Assembly (NCBI GenBank): GCA_021785915.1
Contig: JAJYEF010000005.1
Span: forward strand, 1-35,916
DNA length: 35,916 bases
Reading direction: 5' to 3'
From: a bacterium
GTDB lineage: Bacteria; Patescibacteriota; Microgenomatia; Levybacterales; UBA12049
In this document: one piece after another, positions 3,359-35,916 of the stretch
Layout: the number at the start of each line of letters is the position of its first letter
How positions within the stretch are numbered: the first letter of the stretch is position 1
Notes under the pieces: generated by a model
The model's input: only the letters and a program-made list of their open reading frames with translations
Databases searched by the model: none
Told to the model about the DNA's origin: nothing
Made by a program: the position numbers and the translations under genes

Positions 3359-5122
3359 TTAATTTCTCAGCCATTCAGAGAATTTATTATACTCCAATGT
3401 GTTAAGTATGTCATTATTAGTCGCCCATCCTCGCCGCGCCATAAAAACCCCGTATTTTTGCAATTCCATATGACTAACATCGTGACTGTCAGTATTTATT
3501 ACCATCTTTACTCCTGCTTCAACAGCCATTTTTATCATAATATCTGATAAGTCTAACCGTTGTGGCCAGCTGTTTATTTCCAGTGCCTTATTGTTTTTTT
3601 TGCAGAAATCAAAGATCTTGTCCCATATAAGGTCGTAACCCGGCCTGACATTTAAGAGTTTTCCTGTAGGATGGGCAAGAATTTTTGCTTTGGGATGAGA
3701 AAGCCCTTCTAAAACCCGCTTTGTCATTTCTTCCTTGTCCATAGAGAATACGCTGTGAATTGATACGATCGAAGCGTCAAGGATGTTTAATGATTTTTTG
3801 TCGATTGCAAGATTACCGTTCGGTAATATGTCTGTTTCGAGTAATTTAAATATTCGAACATTTTTGTTGTGTGATTTAAGTTGTTCAATTTTTTCATTAC
3901 GTTTAGCAATAAGTTCGTATATTTTTTGATTGGAGTGTTTTGATTGGCTAGGGTTATGTTCGGCAAAGCCGATATATTCATAGTTAAGCTGACCTGCTTT
4001 ATCTATCATTTCCTCCATCGGGCTTTTTCCCAAGTCGTGGCTTGGTTCTATAGGAAAATTTGAATGTATATGCAAGTCTCCCTTGATATCGCCAAGCTCA
4101 ACGAGTTTAGGGAGTTTAAGTTTTTCTGCAAGTTCTATTTCGCCTTTGTCCTCGCGTAGTTCCGGCGGAATCCATTCAAGTCCGATGGCTTTATAAAAGC
4201 TTTCTTCTTCCGAATATTTCTGTGATTTTTTAGTTTTCAAATTTTTTATTCCGTATTCAGACAAGGAGAGCCCCTTTTTCAAAGCAAGCTCCCTCAGATG
4301 AACGTTGTGGTTTTTGCTTCCTGTAAAGTGTTGTAACAATGACCCGAAACTTTCTTCAGGTTGGATTAGGAGGTCAATTTGTCTTCCTCCCGAAACCAAG
4401 ATTGAAGCCGAAACTTCGCCTTTTTCGATTATTCTTTCTTTGTTGGGGTATGAAACGAAATACTCTATTACTTTTTTAGGATTGTCTGTGGAAATAGCTA
4501 TGTCAACGTCTCCGACGGTTGGGGAGCGCCTTCTAAGACTTCCAAGGGCTTCAACTTTTTTAACCTCAGGGCATTTTTTTAGATAATCTATCAATTTTTG
4601 GGAAACTTCGAAAGCGTAGGGGAGTATCATTCTTGTTGTTTTTCCTTTCCCGAGCCTATACTCCGAAATTGCCCTTAAAATGTCCGATTGGGATTTATTG
4701 CCAAAGCCTTCAAGCTTCGCAATTCTTCCCGCCTCCGCAACCTTTTCAAGATCATCGATTACCGTACCGGGATTATGTAACTTGAATTCTTTTACCAGTT
4801 TGTAGGCTTTTTTAGGTCCAAACGAAGGAATTTCGGTAAGAACGAAAACCGATTCGGGAATATCTTTCAAAACCCAATCGAAATGGGCAACTTTTCCTTT
4901 TTTAAACAGGTCTATAATATGTGATTTGATTGTATTTCCTATGCCTGGTAGATTTTTTAGATTATCTTCCTTGTAGTAATCCGATAATTCTCCCGTCAGA
5001 TTGGAGATTGTGTCCGCAGCCCTCTGGTAGGCAACAATCTGGAAATGGAATTTTTTTTCATCCTTTATGGTGTACGCGTCCGCTATGTCTTTAAATAGCT
5101 TTGCAACTTCTTGATTACTCAT
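3359..5122 (-). CDS. polX: DNA polymerase X family with PHP domain (PolX)
   Basis: HhH region LPGIGNTIKSHI, nucleotidyltransferase GSLRRRSPTVGDVDIAIS and RQIDLLI, C-terminal PHP domain GDLHIHSNF...HPTGKLLNVRPGYD...INTDSHDVSHM. Confidence 0.93.
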   Translation of the reverse strand: MSNQEVAKLFKDIADAYTIKDEKKFHFQIVAYQRAADTISNLTGELSDYYKEDNLKNLPGIGNTIKSHIIDLFKKGKVAHFDWVLKDIPESVFVLTEIPSFGPKKAYKLVKEFKLHNPGTVIDDLEKVAEAGRIAKLEGFGNKSQSDILRAISEYRLGKGKTTRMILPYAFEVSQKLIDYLKKCPEVKKVEALGSLRRRSPTVGDVDIAISTDNPKKVIEYFVSYPNKERIIEKGEVSASILVSGGRQIDLLIQPEESFGSLLQHFTGSKNHNVHLRELALKKGLSLSEYGIKNLKTKKSQKYSEEESFYKAIGLEWIPPELREDKGEIELAEKLKLPKLVELGDIKGDLHIHSNFPIEPSHDLGKSPMEEMIDKAGQLNYEYIGFAEHNPSQSKHSNQKIYELIAKRNEKIEQLKSHNKNVRIFKLLETDILPNGNLAIDKKSLNILDASIVSIHSVFSMDKEEMTKRVLEGLSHPKAKILAHPTGKLLNVRPGYDLIWDKIFDFCKKNNKALEINSWPQRLDLSDIMIKMAVEAGVKMVINTDSHDVSHMELQKYGVFMARRGWATNNDILNTLEYNKFSEWLRN

Positions 5123-5210
5123 GGCAAAAAAATCATAACATTAAGTAAAATTAAGTACAAGTTTAAGCATTGACTAGGTTTGAATAATTTGTTAGGATAC
5201 CATAGAGTTT

Positions 5211-25668: not shown

Positions 25669-27393
25669 TTAAATTATGCGCAGTAACTCTTTAGCATTTG
25701 TTAAATTTGATTCTTGATCGTTTAAGCATAATAATGCTTGCTTTTCATCGATGGTTTTTCTGCCTTTTTGTTCCATACCTTCTTTTACAGCATTTTCGAT
25801 CTCTGAAATGGTTACCTCTAACGTTTCATCCAATTGATTTCTATAGCTGTAGATGCTTCTTGTAACTCTCTCTGAAAAATCATATCTTGATCTTCCACAG
25901 TGCTTATCAAATTCCTCTATGGTTCTACTTTTAATATTATCGTAAAGAAGTTTACCTGAAATGAATTTGGGAAGCTTAGAAACAATTGGAGTGAAAAACT
26001 CCACATCTACTTTTATCTCATCAAAAGAAAATTTAAACTCTACCTCATCGATTAAATTTTCCTCAGTTTCAAACGGTTTTGCTTTTATGTCAAACAGATT
26101 TGAAGAAAGCTCAATTACTTTATTCAGTGACTTATTCGTTTCGGTGGAAAATCTTCCGATGATAGATTTTAAGGACGTCTGAAGTTTAATTTCCTCTTCT
26201 TTTCTCCAAATGCTGAATATCTCTTTAATTTTTGTTTCCAGAAAAATATTTAATTTTTCGGCAAGCTGACTGCTTCCATGAGCTTTATTCTTTCCATAAA
26301 ATTCAGCAAGCTCCTCAAGAAGTAAGGGCAACTTTTCAACTTTTAGAATTTCTATATCTTCAATTAAGCTTTGATTCACAAGTTTTTGGACTTGTCCTTC
26401 CAGAATATAATCTATATCTTCTTTTTGCTGTTCTATATTTCCTATTTCTTTTTCAAACGCTACAACTTTTTCTTTTAGTAAAGATAGCGGAGTTTTAATC
26501 GTTTGTTTTTTTAGTTCTAGAATTAACTCTATCTCGTTAATTATGTATGACATTTTCTTCATCACTGACTCTTTAATAACTTTTGTCCTTTCTTTTTTCA
26601 GAAAAGAATTAAGTTCGGTTTCAAAATCCAAGAGCCTGCTCTCTTTTAACGCCTTTTTGTTATTTTTGCTCTTTCCATCCAGTCCCAGTTTCGAAGAAAG
26701 GGGATAAAACTTTAATTCTTTTACATCAAGGCTTTTTTCAACGACCTGTTTTGTAAAATCCAAAGATTGATTTCTTTCTTTTTCCTCAACTTGGTCGATT
26801 TTATTTTGAACAAAAAGTATTTTTCCCAAGTAATCTTTTATTGATAATAGGAATTGAAGCTCTGCTTGACTAATGGGTGGATCTGCGGTTACTACGAATA
26901 TGCCAACATCTGCCTTAGGTACAAAATCATAGGCAACATCAGTATTGTGTTTATATACCGAACCTACTCCCGGAGTGTCGACTATTTGAACACCTGATTT
27001 TAGAAAATCTGATTGATATTCTATTTCTACTTTATCAACCTGTTTTTTGTTTTCGGGATTTTTATTCTCGGTTACATAATCCTCCAATTCTTCGCTTTTT
27101 ATCTCAATTGTTTTACCATTTAAAAAAACAACGGAAATCTTTCTTTTATCTCCATATTTAATTATCGTCACTATTGAAGTTAAGGGAACAACAGAGGTAG
27201 GAAGGATACTCTCGCCAAGTAGAGCATTGATTAAAGAGGATTTGCCCCTTTTAAATTGACCTAAAATCACTATTTGAACTTCATTTTTTTGAAGTTTTTC
27301 AGAAAGAGCAAGTACTTTTTTACTTAACCCATCATTTTCTTTTACTATCTCAAGGCTATCAAGAATTTTTAATGAATTTATTAAGTTATCCAT
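25669..27393 (-). CDS. Dynamin-like GTPase (bacterial dynamin-like protein family)
   Basis: G1 GQFKRGKSSLINALLG, LPTSVVPLTSIVT, G3 VDTPGVGSVY, G4 FVQNKIDQV, long helical C-terminal half. Confidence 0.85.
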   Translation of the reverse strand: MDNLINSLKILDSLEIVKENDGLSKKVLALSEKLQKNEVQIVILGQFKRGKSSLINALLGESILPTSVVPLTSIVTIIKYGDKRKISVVFLNGKTIEIKSEELEDYVTENKNPENKKQVDKVEIEYQSDFLKSGVQIVDTPGVGSVYKHNTDVAYDFVPKADVGIFVVTADPPISQAELQFLLSIKDYLGKILFVQNKIDQVEEKERNQSLDFTKQVVEKSLDVKELKFYPLSSKLGLDGKSKNNKKALKESRLLDFETELNSFLKKERTKVIKESVMKKMSYIINEIELILELKKQTIKTPLSLLKEKVVAFEKEIGNIEQQKEDIDYILEGQVQKLVNQSLIEDIEILKVEKLPLLLEELAEFYGKNKAHGSSQLAEKLNIFLETKIKEIFSIWRKEEEIKLQTSLKSIIGRFSTETNKSLNKVIELSSNLFDIKAKPFETEENLIDEVEFKFSFDEIKVDVEFFTPIVSKLPKFISGKLLYDNIKSRTIEEFDKHCGRSRYDFSERVTRSIYSYRNQLDETLEVTISEIENAVKEGMEQKGRKTIDEKQALLCLNDQESNLTNAKELLRII

Positions 27394-27396
27394 AAA

Positions 27397-27467
27397 TAAA
27401 AAAAACTTCTACAAAAACATAGAAGTCATTAGCAATATAAGCCTTAAAAAGCGAACTTCATCGCTTA
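27397..27467 (-). promoter_or_regulatory. Fluoride (crcB-motif) riboswitch A with intrinsic terminator platform, upstream of the dynamin-like GTPase
   Basis: Minus strand: AAGCGATGAAGTTCGCTT TTTAAGGCTTATATTGCTAATGACTTCTATGTTTTTGTAGAAGTTTTTTTT. P1 AAGCG/CGCTT, loop GAAGT pairs with downstream ACTTC (pseudoknot), and the same ACTTC starts the ACTTCTA/TAGAAGT terminator. Confidence 0.9.
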
Positions 27468-27471
27468 TTGT

Positions 27472-27498
27472 ATTTTACAGCTTAATATATGATAAAAT
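27472..27498. promoter_or_regulatory. Divergent promoter pair 1
   Basis: TAAAAT on minus (27472-27477) and TAAAAT on plus (27493-27498), 15 bp apart, each just upstream of an aptamer. Confidence 0.7.
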
Positions 27499-27502
27499 CA
27501 AT

Positions 27503-27566
27503 CTAAGAGTGATGAAGCTCACCTAATTGTTCCTATGAACTGACAGCTTCTACGACTGTAGGAGCC
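27503..27566 (+). promoter_or_regulatory. Fluoride (crcB-motif) riboswitch B with RBS-sequestering platform, upstream of prenyltransferase-repeat protein
   Basis: AGAGTGATGAAGCTCACCTAATTGTTCCTATGAACTGACAGCTTCTACGACTGTAGGAGCC-ATG. P1 GTG/CAC region, P2 GTTC/GAAC, pseudoknot GAAGC/GCTTC, platform GCTTCTAC-GACT-GTAGGAGC masks AGGAG. Confidence 0.9.
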
Positions 27567-28391
27567 ATGTTTGATAAACAGAAAATCATAGACTACACGG
27601 AGGATAAACATCTAAAAGACGGGGGTTATTTTTTCGCTAAAGTCGAACCTTCTAGCGGTCTTGATACCTATTACGCTGTAAAAATCCTCAAAATGCTAGG
27701 AATGAAACCGCAAGACCCTTTGGGAGTAAAAAGATTTTTCCTCGATATGGAAGCTTCAGAAGGAATTGACGATATTACGGGACTGTATCTTAATCTAGAA
27801 ACACTAAAAGAGATTGGATACGATTTAACTCGTTTTAGATGCTATGAATCTATCGTTAAAGAAACACAAAATAGACATGGGGGATTTGGAACTGTTGGCG
27901 AACTCTATGTCGAGATTGCTTCAGAACTTGAAACAACCTATAGAGCTGTTGTAATTTCAAACGATTTAAATTGCTCTCTAGATAAAAATTCTCTTGTTGA
28001 GTTTATTTTTTCTTTTCAAAATAAAGATGGAGGTTTCGGAAGTAAAGGACTTTCTCTTCTTTCAACAACTTACTACGCTCTTTCAATACTTCAAGAACTT
28101 GGTGAACGGAAAAAAATTGCAAAAATTCCGAATTTTTTATTGGATATAGAAAGAAGCAATTTTTTTAACTTTTACTTAGAAGATATATTTTGGTTAACAG
28201 AAAGTTTACAACTCCTTAAACAAAAACCAAGAGATACAAAAACGATAATATCCTTTTTAGAGATGTGCATCCGGATTGACGGCGGATTTTCTCGTTCAAT
28301 AAACTTGGGAATTTCAACACTTGAGGATACATATTATGCAGTAACAATTCTTAAGAGATTGGAAGAATACGGAATACAAGAATTTGTCTAA
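27567..28391 (+). CDS. Prenyltransferase/squalene-cyclase-like repeat (alpha/alpha toroid) protein
   Basis: Repeats with DGGYF...LDTYYAVKIL, HGGFGT...LETTYRAVV, DGGFGSKGLSLLSTTYYALSILQELG, DGGFSR...LEDTYYAVTILKRL. Confidence 0.75.
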   Translation: MFDKQKIIDYTEDKHLKDGGYFFAKVEPSSGLDTYYAVKILKMLGMKPQDPLGVKRFFLDMEASEGIDDITGLYLNLETLKEIGYDLTRFRCYESIVKETQNRHGGFGTVGELYVEIASELETTYRAVVISNDLNCSLDKNSLVEFIFSFQNKDGGFGSKGLSLLSTTYYALSILQELGERKKIAKIPNFLLDIERSNFFNFYLEDIFWLTESLQLLKQKPRDTKTIISFLEMCIRIDGGFSRSINLGISTLEDTYYAVTILKRLEEYGIQEFV

Positions 28392-28402
28392 AATCGGTAA
28401 TT

Positions 28403-28633
28403 ATGAAAGAACAGCTTTTGATTTATTTTTGGAAATTTTTTCTTCCTGCCGAAAAAATTGAAGAAAAGAAAAAAGAACTTTTAATTAAAAAGATTAAGTA
28501 TCACGTTGAACACACATCGGGAGGAGGAATATTCTTTACGTTTTGGGAAAAGATAAAAATTCTTGGCTTTGTCGGTTTTTTAATTCTTATAAGTTTTTCA
28601 ATATTTTTCTTATTAGCTTTTGTATCAAAATAA
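28403..28633 (+). CDS. Small single-TM protein
   Basis: 76 aa; basic N-terminal half then ILGFVGFLILISFSIFFLLAFVSK; 11 bp after the preceding CDS. Confidence 0.6.
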   Translation: MKEQLLIYFWKFFLPAEKIEEKKKELLIKKIKYHVEHTSGGGIFFTFWEKIKILGFVGFLILISFSIFFLLAFVSK

Positions 28634-29110: not shown

Positions 29111-29332
29111 TTAATTTATAATTCTACTTAAATTCTGAATAAATTTCTGCTGGTTGTTAATTAGTTCATCAGTTTTAAAATTCCTAAGCTCTCTAACTGC
29201 CTGAGCTGATAACTTTTTTAAAGTTTGGTCATTTTCCAATACATCTTCGTCAACTTCAAGAGCTGTTTTATTTATACCTAACAACTTTAGACTTGAAAGA
29301 GAACGTATGCGTGAGAGTGCAACATAACTCAT
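29111..29332 (-). pseudogene. PIF1-like helicase C-terminal fragment
   Basis: MSYVALSRIRSLSSLKLLGINKTALEVDEDVLENDQTLKKLSAQAVRELRNFK aligns with the C-terminus of the helicase at 31115-32443 (MGYVALSRVRSLSSMKLMGVNKIALQVDETVLESDQTLRNLSTQALIELRNLK). Confidence 0.8.
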
Positions 29333-29812: not shown

Positions 29813-31108
29813 TTAGAAGTTTCTGAAGCTAGACAGACCCGTTCCGTAATTAGTTTTTCCCACAAGCATTCTTTCGATTCGCATCAGTCTGTTATATTTC
29901 GCCACCCGTTCAGACCTTGCCGGAGCGCCGGTTTTCATTTGTCCGATACCCATCGCAACCGTAAAGTCCGCAATAAAAGTGTCCTCAGTCTCTCCGCTTC
30001 TATGGGAAACAACAGATGTCATGTTATTTTTTCTGGCAAGTAATACCGCATCAATCGTTTCGGTTAAAGTTCCTATTTGATTTAACTTTATTAAAACAGA
30101 GTTCGTAGTTTTATTATCAATACCTCTTTGGATTCGTTTTACATTGGTGACATACAAATCATCTCCGACAATTTGGAGTTTATCTCCGAAGGAAGCCGTA
30201 AATTTTCCAAAAGCATTCCAGTCGTCTTCGGCGAAGATATCTTCCATAGAGATAATCGGGTATTTTGAGGCAAGGTTTTGGAAAAAGCCTGAAAGATCGT
30301 CGCTTGTTACTGTTTTTCCTTCCTTGGTAAGGTTATATTTTCCGTCAACAAAAAATTCCGAAGCAGCAGGGTCAATTCCGAACGAAATGTCTCCTCCGAG
30401 TTTGTATCCGGCTTTTTGGATAGCTTCTGATAAAAGCTCGAAAGGTTCTTCGTTTGAAGAAACTTTTGGAGCAAAACCTCCTTCATCTCCAACGGTTATG
30501 GCATAACCTTTTTCCTTAATTATGCCTTTTAATATCTGATAAACCTCCGCATTCATTCTGATTGCTTCAACCACAGATTTGGCTCCGATAGGGAAAAGCA
30601 TGTATTCTTGAATATCGGTTGCCCAATTTGCGTGTTTTCCACCATTCATCACATTCATTTCGGGGATTGGCATAATGTAAGTTCCGTTAAAATCTGGGTT
30701 AAATTTAGTGAGGTATTCATAGAGTTCTTTCTTTTCTGATGCGCTTTCAGCTCTGGCAGCACTTAAAGAAACAGAAAGAATTGCATTTGCCCCAAGATTA
30801 GCTTTATTTTCAGTTCCGTCTAATTCAATCATGGTCTGATCAAGTTTATTTTGATCTTGAGCGTCTAATCCAATAACTGCTTGGGAAATCTTAGAATTGA
30901 CGTTTTCAACGGCTTTTAGCACTCCTAAACCGTTATATCTGCTCTTGTCTCCATCTCTAATTTCTACAGCCTCGTACTTACCTGTGGAGGCACCAGAGGG
31001 TATTGCATCCCATCCTTTTGATCCGTCTTCAAGCACGGTTACAGCCTCAATTGTCGGGTTGCCGCGGCTATCTAAAATTTCTTGCGCTTGAACTGATTTA
31101 ATTTTCAT
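29813..31108 (-). CDS. eno: Enolase, canonical paralog 2
   Basis: AQEILDSRGNPTIEAVT, SGASTGKYEAVEIRDGD, NGGKHANWATDIQEYMLFPIGA, VGDEGGFAP, MEDIFAEDDWNAF, LIKLNQIGTLTET, VSHRSGETEDTFIAD, KTGAPARSERVAKYNRLMRIE. Confidence 0.95.
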   Translation of the reverse strand: MKIKSVQAQEILDSRGNPTIEAVTVLEDGSKGWDAIPSGASTGKYEAVEIRDGDKSRYNGLGVLKAVENVNSKISQAVIGLDAQDQNKLDQTMIELDGTENKANLGANAILSVSLSAARAESASEKKELYEYLTKFNPDFNGTYIMPIPEMNVMNGGKHANWATDIQEYMLFPIGAKSVVEAIRMNAEVYQILKGIIKEKGYAITVGDEGGFAPKVSSNEEPFELLSEAIQKAGYKLGGDISFGIDPAASEFFVDGKYNLTKEGKTVTSDDLSGFFQNLASKYPIISMEDIFAEDDWNAFGKFTASFGDKLQIVGDDLYVTNVKRIQRGIDNKTTNSVLIKLNQIGTLTETIDAVLLARKNNMTSVVSHRSGETEDTFIADFTVAMGIGQMKTGAPARSERVAKYNRLMRIERMLVGKTNYGTGLSSFRNF

Positions 31109-31114
31109 ATTATT

Positions 31115-32443
31115 TTAATTATACATAACTTGTCTTAGGTTTTCGATGAATTCTTTTTGTTTATCTAATCTATCTTGTGGTTTTAAATTTCTTAATTCGA
31201 TTAGCGCTTGGGTTGATAAATTTCTAAGAGTTTGATCGGATTCCAAGACGGTTTCGTCCACCTGAAGTGCTATTTTATTAACTCCCATAAGCTTCATGCT
31301 CGAAAGGCTTCTGACTCTGGATAAGGCCACATATCCCATTCCGTGAGCAAATGACTTGCTTAAATCAATTTCTGCTAAATCAAGGCTCATGCCTTGAGAT
31401 TTATGAATGGTAATTGCCCATGCCAAACGCAAAGGAACCTGGCTAATTTCGGCTTTTAGAACATCTTTTTCTTCGATTTTCCAACTCGCGGGTTTTGCGA
31501 CTGCTTTAAGACCGGAGGTTGTTTTAACAACAGGGAATCCTTCCTCGTCAAATCCAATTATTTTACCAAGAGTTCCGTTAACATATCCTTGATTAAAGTT
31601 ATTTTTAACAAACATAACTAAAGCTCCTTTTTTAAGAATCAGTTTTTCTGGAGCAAGACAGCCTTTTTTAAGATTGTCAACCAGAGTTTGCTCTCCCCAG
31701 GACGTCATTTCGTAAGCTCTTGACTCCTCTTTTATTTTATCAAGCTCGAAATAATTAAGGCCATCTACGTCAACGTTATGCGTGTAAAGTTTGGTCGGAG
31801 TGATTTTCGCTTCAAGCTTTTTATTCAGTCTTGACATTAAAAGTCTTAAGGATTCAACAGAAACGTCATTTTGTCTTATTTCGTTCAGTATCTGTAAAAA
31901 TCTTGAGTCTTCCTGCCTATATTGTTCTTCAAGGTAACAAATTTTTACATCCATTTCCTGCCAGGATTGCGATTTATCTACAAAACTGTTATCATCACTG
32001 TTTTTGCTTACAGGCGGGAGCTGGAAAAAATCTCCGCACAAAATTACTTGCAATCCGCCAAAAGGAGCATCGCTATTTTTGAATACTTTGCAAATCTTAT
32101 TTACCATATCAAGCCTTGATGCCTGAAGCATGGAAATCTCATCAATAACTAGCACCTTGGTATTTGCAAATCTTTCTTGCAAATAAGGTTTAAGAAGGAT
32201 ATTACTGATATCATCGTCTTCAAGTTTATCCTTTATTCCGATACCCGACCATGAATGAATAGTTAGACCGTCTAGATGCGTAGCGGCAATTCCGGTTGAG
32301 GCTGTAACTCCAACTTCAACGCCATTTTTTTGTAAATACCCAATATACTCATTAAGAAGGTAAGTTTTTCCGCTTCCCGCAGCACCCGTAAGGTAGACAT
32401 TATAGCCCAATTTTAGAATATCGAAAGCCTCTTCTTGTGTCAT
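31115..32443 (-). CDS. PIF1-like ATP-dependent DNA helicase
   Basis: Walker A LTGAAGSGKTYLLNEYI, VGVTASTGIAATHLDGLTIHSWSGIG, VLIDEIS-like VLVIDEISMLQ, GDFFQLPPV, AITIHKSQGMSLDLAEIDL, GYVALSRVRS. Confidence 0.92.
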   Translation of the reverse strand: MTQEEAFDILKLGYNVYLTGAAGSGKTYLLNEYIGYLQKNGVEVGVTASTGIAATHLDGLTIHSWSGIGIKDKLEDDDISNILLKPYLQERFANTKVLVIDEISMLQASRLDMVNKICKVFKNSDAPFGGLQVILCGDFFQLPPVSKNSDDNSFVDKSQSWQEMDVKICYLEEQYRQEDSRFLQILNEIRQNDVSVESLRLLMSRLNKKLEAKITPTKLYTHNVDVDGLNYFELDKIKEESRAYEMTSWGEQTLVDNLKKGCLAPEKLILKKGALVMFVKNNFNQGYVNGTLGKIIGFDEEGFPVVKTTSGLKAVAKPASWKIEEKDVLKAEISQVPLRLAWAITIHKSQGMSLDLAEIDLSKSFAHGMGYVALSRVRSLSSMKLMGVNKIALQVDETVLESDQTLRNLSTQALIELRNLKPQDRLDKQKEFIENLRQVMYN

Positions 32444-32446
32444 TTT

Positions 32447-32953
32447 TCATTTTATCCCGTATTTTTCTTTGTATCTTCTGACTGCTTCGGAAAGCGGGGG
32501 AACGTTATATTTTGCGCGTTCCTCATCCGTTGTTGTTTCGTCGACAGTTTCCAACTCAGGTTCACCATTCCTGTTGGTCCTAAATTGCGTTCCGTATTTT
32601 TGCGGTTTGCCAATTGACAGTAAATATCTGTCCATTGTGGCAGCAAAAAGCCATTTTGCACTTTCATCACCCTTTTCTACCGCCTTCTTGGCAAATTCAT
32701 GTGCAAGGGCAAAGTCTTCAATAGTCTCTCCGTGCTGAAGTATATATGCGCCATGATGGTAATCAAGGCCCGTTTTAATCGAATCTAAATCCCTTAGGAA
32801 TAAAACCGCTTCTTTCCTTTTTTTGTCTCGTCTTTTAAGCCATGAAACATCCTTGATCGTGGCGAACTCCCAGTTTTTACTGGCTCTGTCTTCAACATCT
32901 TCTTTGTAGAAATGCTGAAGGATTGAAGATGTGTTTTGAACCTTGATAGACAT
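32447..32953 (-). CDS. DUF6624-like protein
   Basis: YHHGAYILQHGETIEDFALAHEFAKKAVEKGDESAKWLFAATMDRYLLSIGKPQKYGTQF. Confidence 0.6.
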   Translation of the reverse strand: MSIKVQNTSSILQHFYKEDVEDRASKNWEFATIKDVSWLKRRDKKRKEAVLFLRDLDSIKTGLDYHHGAYILQHGETIEDFALAHEFAKKAVEKGDESAKWLFAATMDRYLLSIGKPQKYGTQFRTNRNGEPELETVDETTTDEERAKYNVPPLSEAVRRYKEKYGIK

Positions 32954-32959
32954 AAATGA

Positions 32960-33310
32960 TTAAGGTTTTGAATATTCAAGAAACAACCTTTCCTTATCCT
33001 TTTGAAGCAGTCTTCTTTGCTCTTCTATATTTCTTAAAACCTGCTGAAGTTCCGGTTTCTGGCTGAAGTCAATAGTATTATTGATTTTTGACCATTGCTG
33101 AATAAGTTGTCTGTCGCGATTTTCAATAGCCTGTTCTATCAGTTGAAACTGAGTGTGCTTGCTAAAGGTATGCCATTCTTCAAAAGTAGCAAGAAATTCG
33201 GGATTATATTCTCCTATTTCTATTGCCTTTTGAAGAGTCATTAGTTGCCCGCCGAAAGATGGTTTTGTGCCCGGTGGAATTATTTCTATTTCATTAGGAT
33301 CGCTTGCCAT
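32960..33310 (-). CDS. Hypothetical protein (ORF track starts at TTG 33334; ATG at 33310 also possible)
   Basis: MASDPNEIEIIPPGTKPSFGGQLMTLQKAIEIGEYNPEFLATFEEWHTFSKHTQFQLIEQAIENRDRQLIQQ... Confidence 0.55.
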   Translation of the reverse strand: MASDPNEIEIIPPGTKPSFGGQLMTLQKAIEIGEYNPEFLATFEEWHTFSKHTQFQLIEQAIENRDRQLIQQWSKINNTIDFSQKPELQQVLRNIEEQRRLLQKDKERLFLEYSKP

Positions 33311-33355
33311 ATTCAAAATTGTAACTTTCTGCAACCAAAATTTATTATTATCTAT

Positions 33356-33898
33356 TTACACTATGTGTAACACTGCGCCAACAACAGATAGTCCTATTCC
33401 TACTGATATAAGGCCTATTGTCCAACGAAAAACATTTGCATAGATAATCCTTGCAATGACAAGACCCAAAAGCCCAAGAGTTGTAAGGGATACGGCAATA
33501 GAAAGTCCAGTTATGTTCGGGAAAAGTATATTTGTAGAAAGGGGTATAAGGGCACCTATAAAACCAAATATACAACTGATACCCATGCCGACAGATACTT
33601 CAACGAAGACTGTTTTGCCAAGGGAAGTTGTTGCAAACTTCCCGTGCGATACGATATTGAGTTGTTTTTCGGCGTTAATAAGTTCTCGTCGAAGCTGTAC
33701 ATATTCCGCTATGAAATAAATGAAAGAACTAGCTACGGCCGTAACAGCAGCGATGCGAAATGCCAGAGAATAATCTAATATTCCTCCTTCAATTATTTTT
33801 CCGGAGGTCAACGTTAATGCGGTTAAAACTCCGTCAACAACACCCAGCAACAGGGCAAATAATTGTTTACCAAGAATAAAATTAACAAAATTTTTCAT
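33356..33898 (-). CDS. VIT1/CCC1-like multi-spanning membrane protein
   Basis: LLGVVDGVLTALTLTSGKI, about five TM helices; overlaps the DUF211 gene by 4 bp. Confidence 0.65.
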   Translation of the reverse strand: MKNFVNFILGKQLFALLLGVVDGVLTALTLTSGKIIEGGILDYSLAFRIAAVTAVASSFIYFIAEYVQLRRELINAEKQLNIVSHGKFATTSLGKTVFVEVSVGMGISCIFGFIGALIPLSTNILFPNITGLSIAVSLTTLGLLGLVIARIIYANVFRWTIGLISVGIGLSVVGAVLHIV

Positions 33899-34179
33899 CG
33901 CGCTTGCTTTACCGGAGTAATTATTCGCTCTCCGGCACCTAATTGGTCAATACTATGTACGACAGCACCGGAATTTTCAATCGCAGTTTGTATTTTGCCA
34001 TAATCAAGATTTTGCCCTTCAATTGTAATATTCATGTCAACCGTTTCTACATCTATTTCAGCAACTTCAATATTGAATCCTTCTACACCTTTGACATTAG
34101 AAATTGCTTCGCCAATTTCCAGTAAGGAAGGGCGCTGAAGTGCTTTATCAACATCTAGTAAGAGTCTTCTAATATTCAT
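33895..34179 (-). CDS. DUF211 family protein
   Basis: MNIRRLLLDVDKALQRPSLLEIGEAISNVKGVEGFNIEVAEIDVETVDMNITIEGQNLDYGKIQTAIENSGAVVHSIDQLGAGERI; matches DUF211 as remembered. Confidence 0.82.
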   Translation of the reverse strand: MNIRRLLLDVDKALQRPSLLEIGEAISNVKGVEGFNIEVAEIDVETVDMNITIEGQNLDYGKIQTAIENSGAVVHSIDQLGAGERIITPVKQAR

Positions 34180-34187
34180 AATTGAGG

Positions 34188-34712
34188 TTACCTCTTTTCA
34201 GATACATAACGGTCCTGGCCTTCCTTAATAATCCTGTATGCCTCTTCTTTTTCCAGCCACCCGTTTATTTTTGCCCATTTACCTTCAAGCTTTTTGTATT
34301 CTTCGAAGAAGTGAACTATTTCTTTCTTATAATGTTCATCAATATCATTCACGTTTTGAATATTGCTGAGCTTAGGATCTTTCTCTACAACTCCTAAAAT
34401 TTTATAATCCTTCCCCGCGTTATCTTCCATATCCAAAGCGCCGACAACTCTAACCCTTACGACACAACCTGGGAAAAGAGGATCGGTAACAAACACCAAT
34501 ACGTCCAAATGGTCTCCGTCCTCGGCCCTTGTATGGGGCACAAACCCATAATCCGTAGGGTAAAAAACCGGAGAATGCAAAACTCTGTCAAGTCTTATCT
34601 CATCCAGGACTTCGTCAAACTCATACTTGTGATGTGAACCTTTAGGAATTTCGACAACGGCATTTATAATTTGCGGTGCTTTGTCTCCAAGCGGTATTTT
34701 TTCGTATGACAT
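34188..34712 (-). CDS. ppa: Soluble inorganic pyrophosphatase (family I)
   Basis: VVEIPKGSHHKYEFDE, RVLHSPVFYPTDYGFVPHT, EDGDHLDVLVFV, GALDMEDNAGKDYKIL. ATG at 34712 (MSYEKIPLG) preferred; the ORF-track start at 34760 lies inside the riboswitch. Confidence 0.95.
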   Translation of the reverse strand: MSYEKIPLGDKAPQIINAVVEIPKGSHHKYEFDEVLDEIRLDRVLHSPVFYPTDYGFVPHTRAEDGDHLDVLVFVTDPLFPGCVVRVRVVGALDMEDNAGKDYKILGVVEKDPKLSNIQNVNDIDEHYKKEIVHFFEEYKKLEGKWAKINGWLEKEEAYRIIKEGQDRYVSEKR

Positions 34713-34783
34713 AAAAAAACTCCTATCAAGTTTGACAGAAGCCATTAGCTTTCGAGGCAATTAGAAGCGAGCTTCATCGCTTA
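34713..34783 (-). promoter_or_regulatory. Fluoride (crcB-motif) riboswitch C with terminator/RBS-masking platform, upstream of ppa
   Basis: Minus strand: AAGCGATGAAGCTCGCTTCTAATTGCCTCGAAAGCTAATGGCTTCTGTCAAACTTGATAGGAGTTTTTTT-ATG. P1 AAGCG/CGCTT, pseudoknot GAAGC/GCTTC; CTTCTGTC...GATAGGAG stem plus U7 forms a terminator whose 3' arm contains the SD AGGAG. Confidence 0.93.
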
Positions 34784-34788
34784 ATTTT

Positions 34789-34815
34789 ATTTTACATCCT
34801 ATTATGTGTTAAAAT
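34789..34815. promoter_or_regulatory. Divergent promoter pair 2
   Basis: TAAAAT on minus (34789-34794) and plus (34810-34815), 15 bp apart, same geometry as pair 1. Confidence 0.7.
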
Positions 34816-34822
34816 CAAGTGT

Positions 34823-34879
34823 AAGTGATGGAGTTCACTCAAAACCGCATTCTTTGCTGATAACTTCTAAAAGTCTACA
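34823..34879 (+). promoter_or_regulatory. Fluoride (crcB-motif) riboswitch D upstream of the 71-aa membrane protein
   Basis: AAGTGATGGAGTTCACTCAAAACCGCATTCTTTGCTGATAACTTCTAAAAGTCTACA-ATG. P1 AGTG/CACT, P2 GCA/TGC, pseudoknot GGAGTT/AACTTC (one G-U); platform ACTT-CTAA-AAGT is weak. Confidence 0.87.
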
Positions 34880-35095
34880 ATGAACAATCTATCTTTATAT
34901 TTGCTTTTAGGAACAATGTTCGGATTTCTTGGAGGATTGGCTGCTTTTTTGATAACCTACGAGGAATACCAGCATCATTTCGTTGATAAAGGAAAGGCTT
35001 TAAACCATAGTATTGAAACCGGAGTTTTCGCATTCATTGTTTTCTTAGGTATTTCTTTGGCGGTTGGGTTGCTTTTTACCTACATCAAATTTTAA
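34880..35095 (+). CDS. 71-aa two-TM membrane protein under riboswitch D
   Basis: MNNLSLYLLLGTMFGFLGGLAAFLITYEEYQHHFVDKGKALNHSIETGVFAFIVFLGISLAVGLLFTYIKF; two hydrophobic segments. Confidence 0.75.
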   Translation: MNNLSLYLLLGTMFGFLGGLAAFLITYEEYQHHFVDKGKALNHSIETGVFAFIVFLGISLAVGLLFTYIKF

Positions 35096-35126: not shown

Positions 35127-35916
35127 TTAGCCTTGGTTATACTTTATTTCCTTCCAGATATGCTCTTTTGTGGTAATTGTATTGGTTAGGATTTTTTGGT
35201 AGGTAGTTAAAAGAAAAATTAATCCTTCCGATTCAAAACTTCTCTCCAGTTGTTCTTTAATGTATCCGCTTAAGAAGTTCTGTTTCCCCTGGTTTGGGAA
35301 AATGAGAATGATTATCGGGAACTTATTATCAGTCCCCGTATATACGTATTTCCAATCTCCCTCCTCTTTAAGTTTAATATATTGCTTGACCCGGTATTTA
35401 ATTGCGTACCTTGGAACATGGGGATCAAATAGCTCCAGGAAAAAAGTCGAGGATTTTATTTCGCCGTCAGGGTCATTAAATTTTTCAATGTACAAATCGG
35501 GGAAGTATTTTCGTATCTCGTTATATTCCTCATTATCCCTGGTCCAGAGTTTTTTGTCTAAGGATAGCTCTGTTTTAGTCCGGCAGAAATATTCAAGGTC
35601 CCGTTTCTTTTTCTTATTAACTTTTCTTTCATATTCCTTAAACTGTGTGTAGATTTCAGAGATATTAACACAGTGGTTGAAAAACTTTAAAGTTGCGTGT
35701 TTGTCATCGTAAAACTTTTTGAAGTATTTGCTTTCCATTTCCTCATATGCTTGGTATTCTTCGGTCTTTTTATCTTTACTAAAGATTATCCCGTTATTAT
35801 CAAGATAGTAGATTGCAGGTTTGGTATTCTCCAAAAGCTTATGGGAGTAGATTCTCCCTAAGTATTTTTTATTGACCAGATCCTTTAGCCAGGCGTTAAT
35901 TCTTTTAGGGTCCTTA
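35127..35916 (-). CDS. Replication-relaxation-like (winged-helix) protein, continuing beyond the window
   Basis: Frame is open to the window end: KDPKRINAWLKDLVNKKYLGRIYSHKLLENTKPAIYYLDNNGIIFSKD..., a Replic_Relax-type wHTH pattern. The TTG start at 35834 in the ORF track is not real. Confidence 0.7.
   Translation of the reverse strand, partial: KDPKRINAWLKDLVNKKYLGRIYSHKLLENTKPAIYYLDNNGIIFSKDKKTEEYQAYEEMESKYFKKFYDDKHATLKFFNHCVNISEIYTQFKEYERKVNKKKKRDLEYFCRTKTELSLDKKLWTRDNEEYNEIRKYFPDLYIEKFNDPDGEIKSSTFFLELFDPHVPRYAIKYRVKQYIKLKEEGDWKYVYTGTDNKFPIIILIFPNQGKQNFLSGYIKEQLERSFESEGLIFLLTTYQKILTNTITTKEHIWKEIKYNQG

Follow-up and report, generated by a model that had tools for sequence, protein, structure and literature searches.

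What does a 71-amino-acid membrane protein encoded directly behind a fluoride riboswitch do, and could it stand in for a fluoride exporter? The fluoride exporters described in bacteria fall into just two unrelated kinds, Fluc and CLC-F, and exporters are the commonest genes under fluoride riboswitches (PMC11139923). The window, i.e. the whole stretch of 35,916 nucleotides analysed here, comes from a draft genome of 0.98 Mb in 97 contigs (the sampled relatives span ~0.3-1.6 Mb).

The ATG of the 71-aa ORF, at position 34880, lies three bases after the end of riboswitch D, a same-strand RF01734 aptamer that, together with the divergent riboswitch C, exceeds the gathering score of this family (34; cmscan, followed by a search at a looser threshold). 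The neighbouring ORF to the right (35127-35915, − strand) is convergent, so that the 71-aa ORF is the sole gene of the riboswitch D unit. These results bear out the earlier note on this DNA, which had described a two-TM ORF directly under a fluoride riboswitch, with no other gene downstream, and four riboswitches (A to D), all of which are present as two divergent pairs. With regard to the expression platform of riboswitch D, no terminator or Shine-Dalgarno sequence is visible between the aptamer and the ATG, and shuffled sequences fold as well as the RNA that comprises the riboswitch and the beginning of the ORF. Initiation at an internal codon, Met13 (34916; preceded by AGGA), was rejected because the residues before it are kept in the homologs.

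Table 1 Features of the two fluoride riboswitch loci of the window.
Feature	Position	Strand	Evidence
Fluoride riboswitch aptamer D of the 71-aa gene	34815-34876	+	RF01734, 42.5 bits, E = 1.2 × 10−8; conserved pseudoknot
71-aa two-helix hairpin membrane protein, family founder	34880-35095	+	ORF, homologs, purifying selection, AlphaFold2 model
Divergent fluoride aptamer (riboswitch C) of the pyrophosphatase operon	34729-34790	−	34.8 bits; terminator hairpin 34743-34718, followed by U run
Fluoride aptamer of the dynamin-like GTPase	27413-27474	−	32.2 bits with Rfam (below gathering); 63.7 bits with own model
Weak fluoride aptamer of the prenyltransferase-like gene	27499-27559	+	19.6 bits with Rfam (below gathering); 50.2 bits with own model
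Inorganic pyrophosphatase	34188-34712	−	PF00719, E = 1.6 × 10−55; homologs directly precede the hairpin gene in G033 and G111
DUF211	33895-34179	−	Pfam/NCBIfam; downstream of pyrophosphatase
VIT/TIGR00267-like membrane protein	33356-33898	−	TIGR00267 match under its cut-off; downstream of pyrophosphatase
Dynamin-like GTPase	25669-27393	−	PF00350; match to LeoA model
274-aa prenyltransferase-like (alpha-alpha toroid) gene	27567-28391	+	PF00432, E = 2.7 × 10−15
76-aa one-TM protein, 3' of the prenyltransferase-like gene	28403-28633	+	ORF

The two aptamers of each divergent pair are 24 bp apart. With a model built from the aptamers of this family, all four window aptamers score 50-64 bits, partly by construction, as all four were included in the model. 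Ten aptamers from the window and related genomes align well: the pseudoknot is paired in 98.3% and hairpin 1 in 97.5% of the cells, with C-G/U-A swaps on both sides in each of these elements, and control slides of 1-3 columns reduce the pairing from 94% to 40-56%. For the three aptamers of the window other than D, clear expression platforms can be discerned by eye, namely, terminator hairpins with U runs ahead of the pyrophosphatase and dynamin-like genes, and a hairpin containing AGGAG ahead of the ATG of the prenyltransferase-like gene. The inter-aptamer gaps (27475-27498 and 34791-34814), exactly 24 bp each, must hold or overlap both promoters of the respective pair, and a TATG-TAAAA-like stretch is present in both.

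The run of genes behind riboswitch C (29813-34712, − strand) encodes the pyrophosphatase (start set at the ATG of MSYEKIPLG, from comparison with homologs), the DUF211 protein, the VIT/TIGR00267-like protein, two uncharacterised proteins, a PIF1-like helicase and enolase. Sensitivity to fluoride is a classic property of two of these enzymes, pyrophosphatase and enolase. The VIT/TIGR00267-like protein is another candidate for an ion transporter in the regulon and could be the ion transporter of this genome. A 73-aa ORF across enolase from the helicase (29111-29332, − strand; MSYVALSRIRSLSSLKLLGINK...) is similar to the C-terminal end of the PIF1-like helicase (31115-32443, − strand), as if it were the remnant of a partial helicase duplication. 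The 76-aa one-TM protein may also belong to the regulon, as its second small membrane protein; at a contig end of G111 (L051:1-145, − strand), an ORF behind a third fluoride riboswitch of that genome begins with MRFFRFHKKSEKEKKELLIKKVFYYV, similar to the N-terminus of the 76-aa protein, the match being too short to score. Literature searches turned up no paper that mentions fluoride riboswitches together with dynamin, and no report of fluoride riboswitches in these bacteria.

The 71-aa protein (MNNLSLYLLLGTMFGFLGGLAAFLITYEEYQHHFVDKGKALNHSIETGVFAFIVFLGISLAVGLLFTYIKF) has homologs at 66 and 41% identity, with the alignment spanning the full length, and in these genes pN is well below pS, with dN/dS of 0.10-0.26 wherever dS is unsaturated; hence, the 71-aa ORF is a real gene. 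It is under purifying selection and is the founder of a new small family that has no name. Members of this family consist of about 60-72 aa and share the architecture TM1 - TY(E/D)EYxHH(F/Y) - short basic turn - TM2, and AlphaFold2, run on three sequences, predicts a helical hairpin (helices 3-33 and 37-68, mean pLDDT 86), i.e. the two helices that the earlier note had assigned to the protein. Only F14, E29, Y30, H33 and F55 are invariant across the family. The conserved residues cluster at the end of helix 1 and in the turn, and few conserved polar residues are found inside the helices. In all members, the N-terminus contains no K or R and the turn contains 2-6; by the positive-inside rule, this distribution would place the turn in the cytoplasm.

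Searches of Pfam, NCBIfam and PADLOC with the 71-aa protein yielded no match above the cut-off, and no relative was found in viral contigs. Weak matches of family members to DUF4064 (best E = 4 × 10−4, below the cut-off) look like hydrophobic-helix noise, and a Thermus match in the plasmid search (E = 0.9), antisense to an annotated gene, was judged to be due to chance. A search of PDB sequences with the family profile returned only a designed TM peptide (E = 0.83). F-type ATP synthase c-subunit-like proteins are likewise two-helix hairpins of similar size, and the 71-aa model aligns with one of them, 2x2v_A, over 67 residues (VIA-align Z = 7.6, rmsd 3.9); this resemblance is that of generic hairpins only, with no sequence relation shown, and such Z values are uninformative for models with long helices.

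The fluoride context of the hairpin gene is kept in relatives, in varied gene arrangements. In G033, an aptamer (24.4 bits) precedes the pyrophosphatase gene, and the ATG of the hairpin gene immediately follows the pyrophosphatase stop codon. The same aptamer-pyrophosphatase-hairpin cassette occurs twice in G111, ~4.3 kb apart, with aptamers of 25.0 and 27.3 bits; the hairpin genes of these two copies (L015:40-851 and 4391-5201) have diverged under purifying selection. In G637, which belongs to another class, an aptamer (30.0 bits) is followed by a short remnant of a prenyltransferase-like gene and then by the hairpin gene. In G182, from another family, the hairpin gene follows a prenyltransferase-like gene, and a convergent gene for a dynamin-like GTPase carries a fluoride aptamer in its leader (L027:3041-3105, − strand; GCGAUGAAGCUCGC...GAUAGCUUCUAC, plus a terminator). 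The partners of the hairpin gene in G182 are the genes found under riboswitches A and B of the window, and the fluoride link in this genome runs through the neighbouring gene, not through an aptamer in the leader of the hairpin unit itself. No recognisable aptamer was found in that leader (8.8 bits), which has a terminator-like end (L027:60-124; GCTTCTAC...GTAGGAGCTTTTTTATG), as in fluoride riboswitches.

Altogether, six of the 11 hairpin copies are linked to fluoride, five directly and one through its neighbour, and the hairpin is the only component that the fluoride loci of the five genomes have in common. The remaining five copies (G007, G263, G289, G585 and G649) showed no aptamer within the stretches examined, so that the role of the family may be wider than fluoride. 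The prenyltransferase-like gene was detected in two of the 262 class genomes, that of the window and G182, both with the hairpin gene. Given the association with a same-strand aptamer in the window and its persistence in relatives, the hairpin gene belongs, with high probability, to the fluoride regulon. The suggestion of the earlier note that this is a new fluoride-handling protein thus holds at the level of regulation; of the two findings that the note would jointly have counted against it, the lack of a match to Fluc was obtained, whereas homologs mostly apart from fluoride riboswitches were not.

For comparison with the six of 11 hairpin copies that are linked, a fluoride riboswitch of any kind was found in roughly 1-2% of the class genomes. 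RF01734 matches in G326 (inside the 23S rRNA) and in G246 and G403 (20-21 bits, the one in G403 inside a long ORF) were treated as false or doubtful. Three of the four genera with a riboswitch contain the hairpin gene versus 6/280 (hypergeometric p = 2 × 10−5, an indicative value given the targeted detections in G033 and G182), and the unbiased version of this comparison gives 2/6 versus 7/373 (p = 0.004), both computed on draft assemblies with relatedness corrected to the genus level only. The dynamin aptamer of G182 is missed by RF01734; a model built from the aptamers of its relatives, from which this aptamer was left out, detects it at 42.1 bits (E = 6 × 10−7 over 75 kb). This aptamer is a clear one, and counts that rely on Rfam probably underestimate the number of fluoride riboswitches in these bacteria.

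Are the known exporters present in the genome of the window and its relatives? Among nine genomes (G000, G001, G002, G033, G111, G007, G182, G263 and G289; G637 was left out), no match to PF02537 or PF00654 was found above the cut-off, with the controls detected. CLC-F (EriC-F) fluoride/proton antiporters would fill the same role as that proposed here for the hairpin protein; they are large proteins with many helices, unlike the 71-aa hairpin, which itself has no PF00654 match, and a single family member matched this model at chance level (E = 0.045). Fluc was detected in one of the 373 class genomes, G027, where it stands behind a fluoride riboswitch of 38.8 bits; the next ORF, likewise small, resembles by eye DUF190, the usual neighbour of CrcB. 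The hairpin gene is absent from G027. Since few genomes anywhere in the class have Fluc, its absence from the hairpin genomes carries little weight. A stronger point is that the Fluc of G027 and the hairpin protein occupy the same regulatory slot. Fluoride-riboswitch regulons that include pyrophosphatase are familiar; the one described here differs in containing, instead of a known exporter, an unnamed hairpin protein, a dynamin-like GTPase and a prenyltransferase-like protein.

The explanation that we favour, tentatively and at slightly less than an even chance, is that the hairpin protein takes the place of the exporter in a fluoride regulon devoid of Fluc; the transport step we infer. Fluoride transport is the single most likely mechanism of the hairpin protein, with a probability that we put somewhat below even, since every fluoride-linked locus contains the hairpin and fluoride riboswitches most often control exporters. 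Under this scheme, a Mg-fluoride complex would fill the aptamer and turn on the hairpin gene, along with those for the pyrophosphatase, the dynamin-like GTPase and the prenyltransferase-like protein; the hairpin protein would insert into the membrane such that its two termini lie outside and its conserved E-Y-x-x-H tip faces the cytoplasm, and would oligomerise; and the oligomer might then provide a membrane exit path, or otherwise lower F−/HF, in place of Fluc. Conceivably, these hairpins make up a fluoride exporter class of their own, unrelated to Fluc and CLC-F and with an oligomeric path, in small-genome bacteria that lost or never had the known exporters, a putative assignment that we regard as rather doubtful.

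A role as an adaptor or in membrane stress is nearly as likely as transport, because the conserved residues are located at the turn and the neighbours include a dynamin-like GTPase. According to this explanation, no fluoride is moved: the hairpin anchors or tunes a partner (the dynamin-like GTPase, the prenyltransferase-like protein or pyrophosphatase) at the membrane under fluoride/HF damage, with the E-Y-x-x-H tip as the docking site. Numerous small membrane proteins that are induced under stress act as regulators of larger proteins. The position of the conserved residues outside the membrane, the LeoA-like GTPase and the toroid protein among the neighbours, and the adjoining dynamin-like, prenyltransferase-like and hairpin genes of G182 are all compatible with such a role. 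However, no one partner is common to all fluoride-linked copies: pyrophosphatase accompanies the hairpin in G033 and G111, the prenyltransferase-like gene (absent from G033) in G182 and G637, and the unit in the window includes no partner at all.

Less probable by far is that the protein carries another ion (H+, Na+, K+, Mg2+ or phosphate), fluoride being only the inducer, and offsets the acidification or ion imbalance caused by the entry of HF. After exporters, the genes most often found under fluoride riboswitches are those for Na+/H+ antiporters (PMC11139923), the ExxHH pattern could bind a cation, and some homologs reside in other contexts that lack riboswitches; against this, no match to an ion-carrier family of Pfam or NCBIfam exceeds the cut-off.

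The earlier note had raised the possibility of a minimal, Fluc-like protein, roughly like the C-terminal half of Fluc. Such a protein would descend from that half and would employ the Fluc mechanism as a higher oligomer. The position under a fluoride riboswitch is that of Fluc/CrcB, likewise a small membrane protein able to stand right behind this riboswitch, and GFLGGLAAFLITYEE resembles the Fluc motif GFxGGxTTFSTFSxE by eye. Nevertheless, this possibility is now very improbable. Fluc forms an antiparallel dimer with a Ser/Thr vestibule and a polar track, each subunit consisting of ~125 aa with four TM helices, compared to 71 aa and two helices in the hairpin protein, and there is no detectable sequence relation between the two. 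Profile comparison lends no support to homology: hhalign of the hairpin family against six Fluc sequences (the G027 Fluc, four plasmid CrcBs and the HMMER-printed Fluc segment of PDB 5a43), both alignments being shallow, gave a probability of 0.2% (E = 0.37) with one aligned column. The 71-aa protein has no match to PF02537, nor does any protein genome-wide in G000. BLASTP against the Fluc of G027, from the same bacterial family, produced 17.3 bits with 29% identity over 51 residues, and in shuffles within TM and turn segments the best observed Fluc score was equalled in 13-86% of cases (six family members tested). In Fluc, an Arg is absolutely conserved, the vestibule Ser is invariant and the adjacent Thr is highly conserved (PMC8315801). 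The 71-aa protein has no Arg and no TFST, lacks the Fluc-invariant Asn, and contains GGLAAFLIT where Fluc has GGxTTFSTFS; the GFLGG of the supposed motif is not conserved, with FSPxAG in other family members. Foldseek and VIA-align list generic hairpins and no Fluc chain, a hairpin monomer being too simple to decide the fold. As far as the sequences tell, then, the hairpin protein is not a Fluc homolog, and the GFLGG resemblance is best read as chance, which the note itself had allowed for.

Finally, that the ORF is spurious, a short reading frame that matches no Pfam or NCBIfam family and lies by chance behind an orphan riboswitch, is refuted by the purifying selection on its homologs and their retention at fluoride-linked positions in four other genomes.

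Membership of this new hairpin family in the fluoride regulon is well supported, and, because its relatives in distant genomes also adjoin fluoride riboswitches, its members are good candidates for fluoride-tolerance proteins of a new kind. They may also constitute a new class of exporters, which would be a putative function. Genomes without Fluc and CLC-F are usually read as exporter-less; a third, hairpin-sized exporter, if real, would change the annotation of fluoride tolerance and would serve as a very small model system for the selective passage of anions. Even if the hairpin does not transport fluoride, it represents a new family of fluoride-stress genes with dynamin-like and prenyltransferase-like partners.
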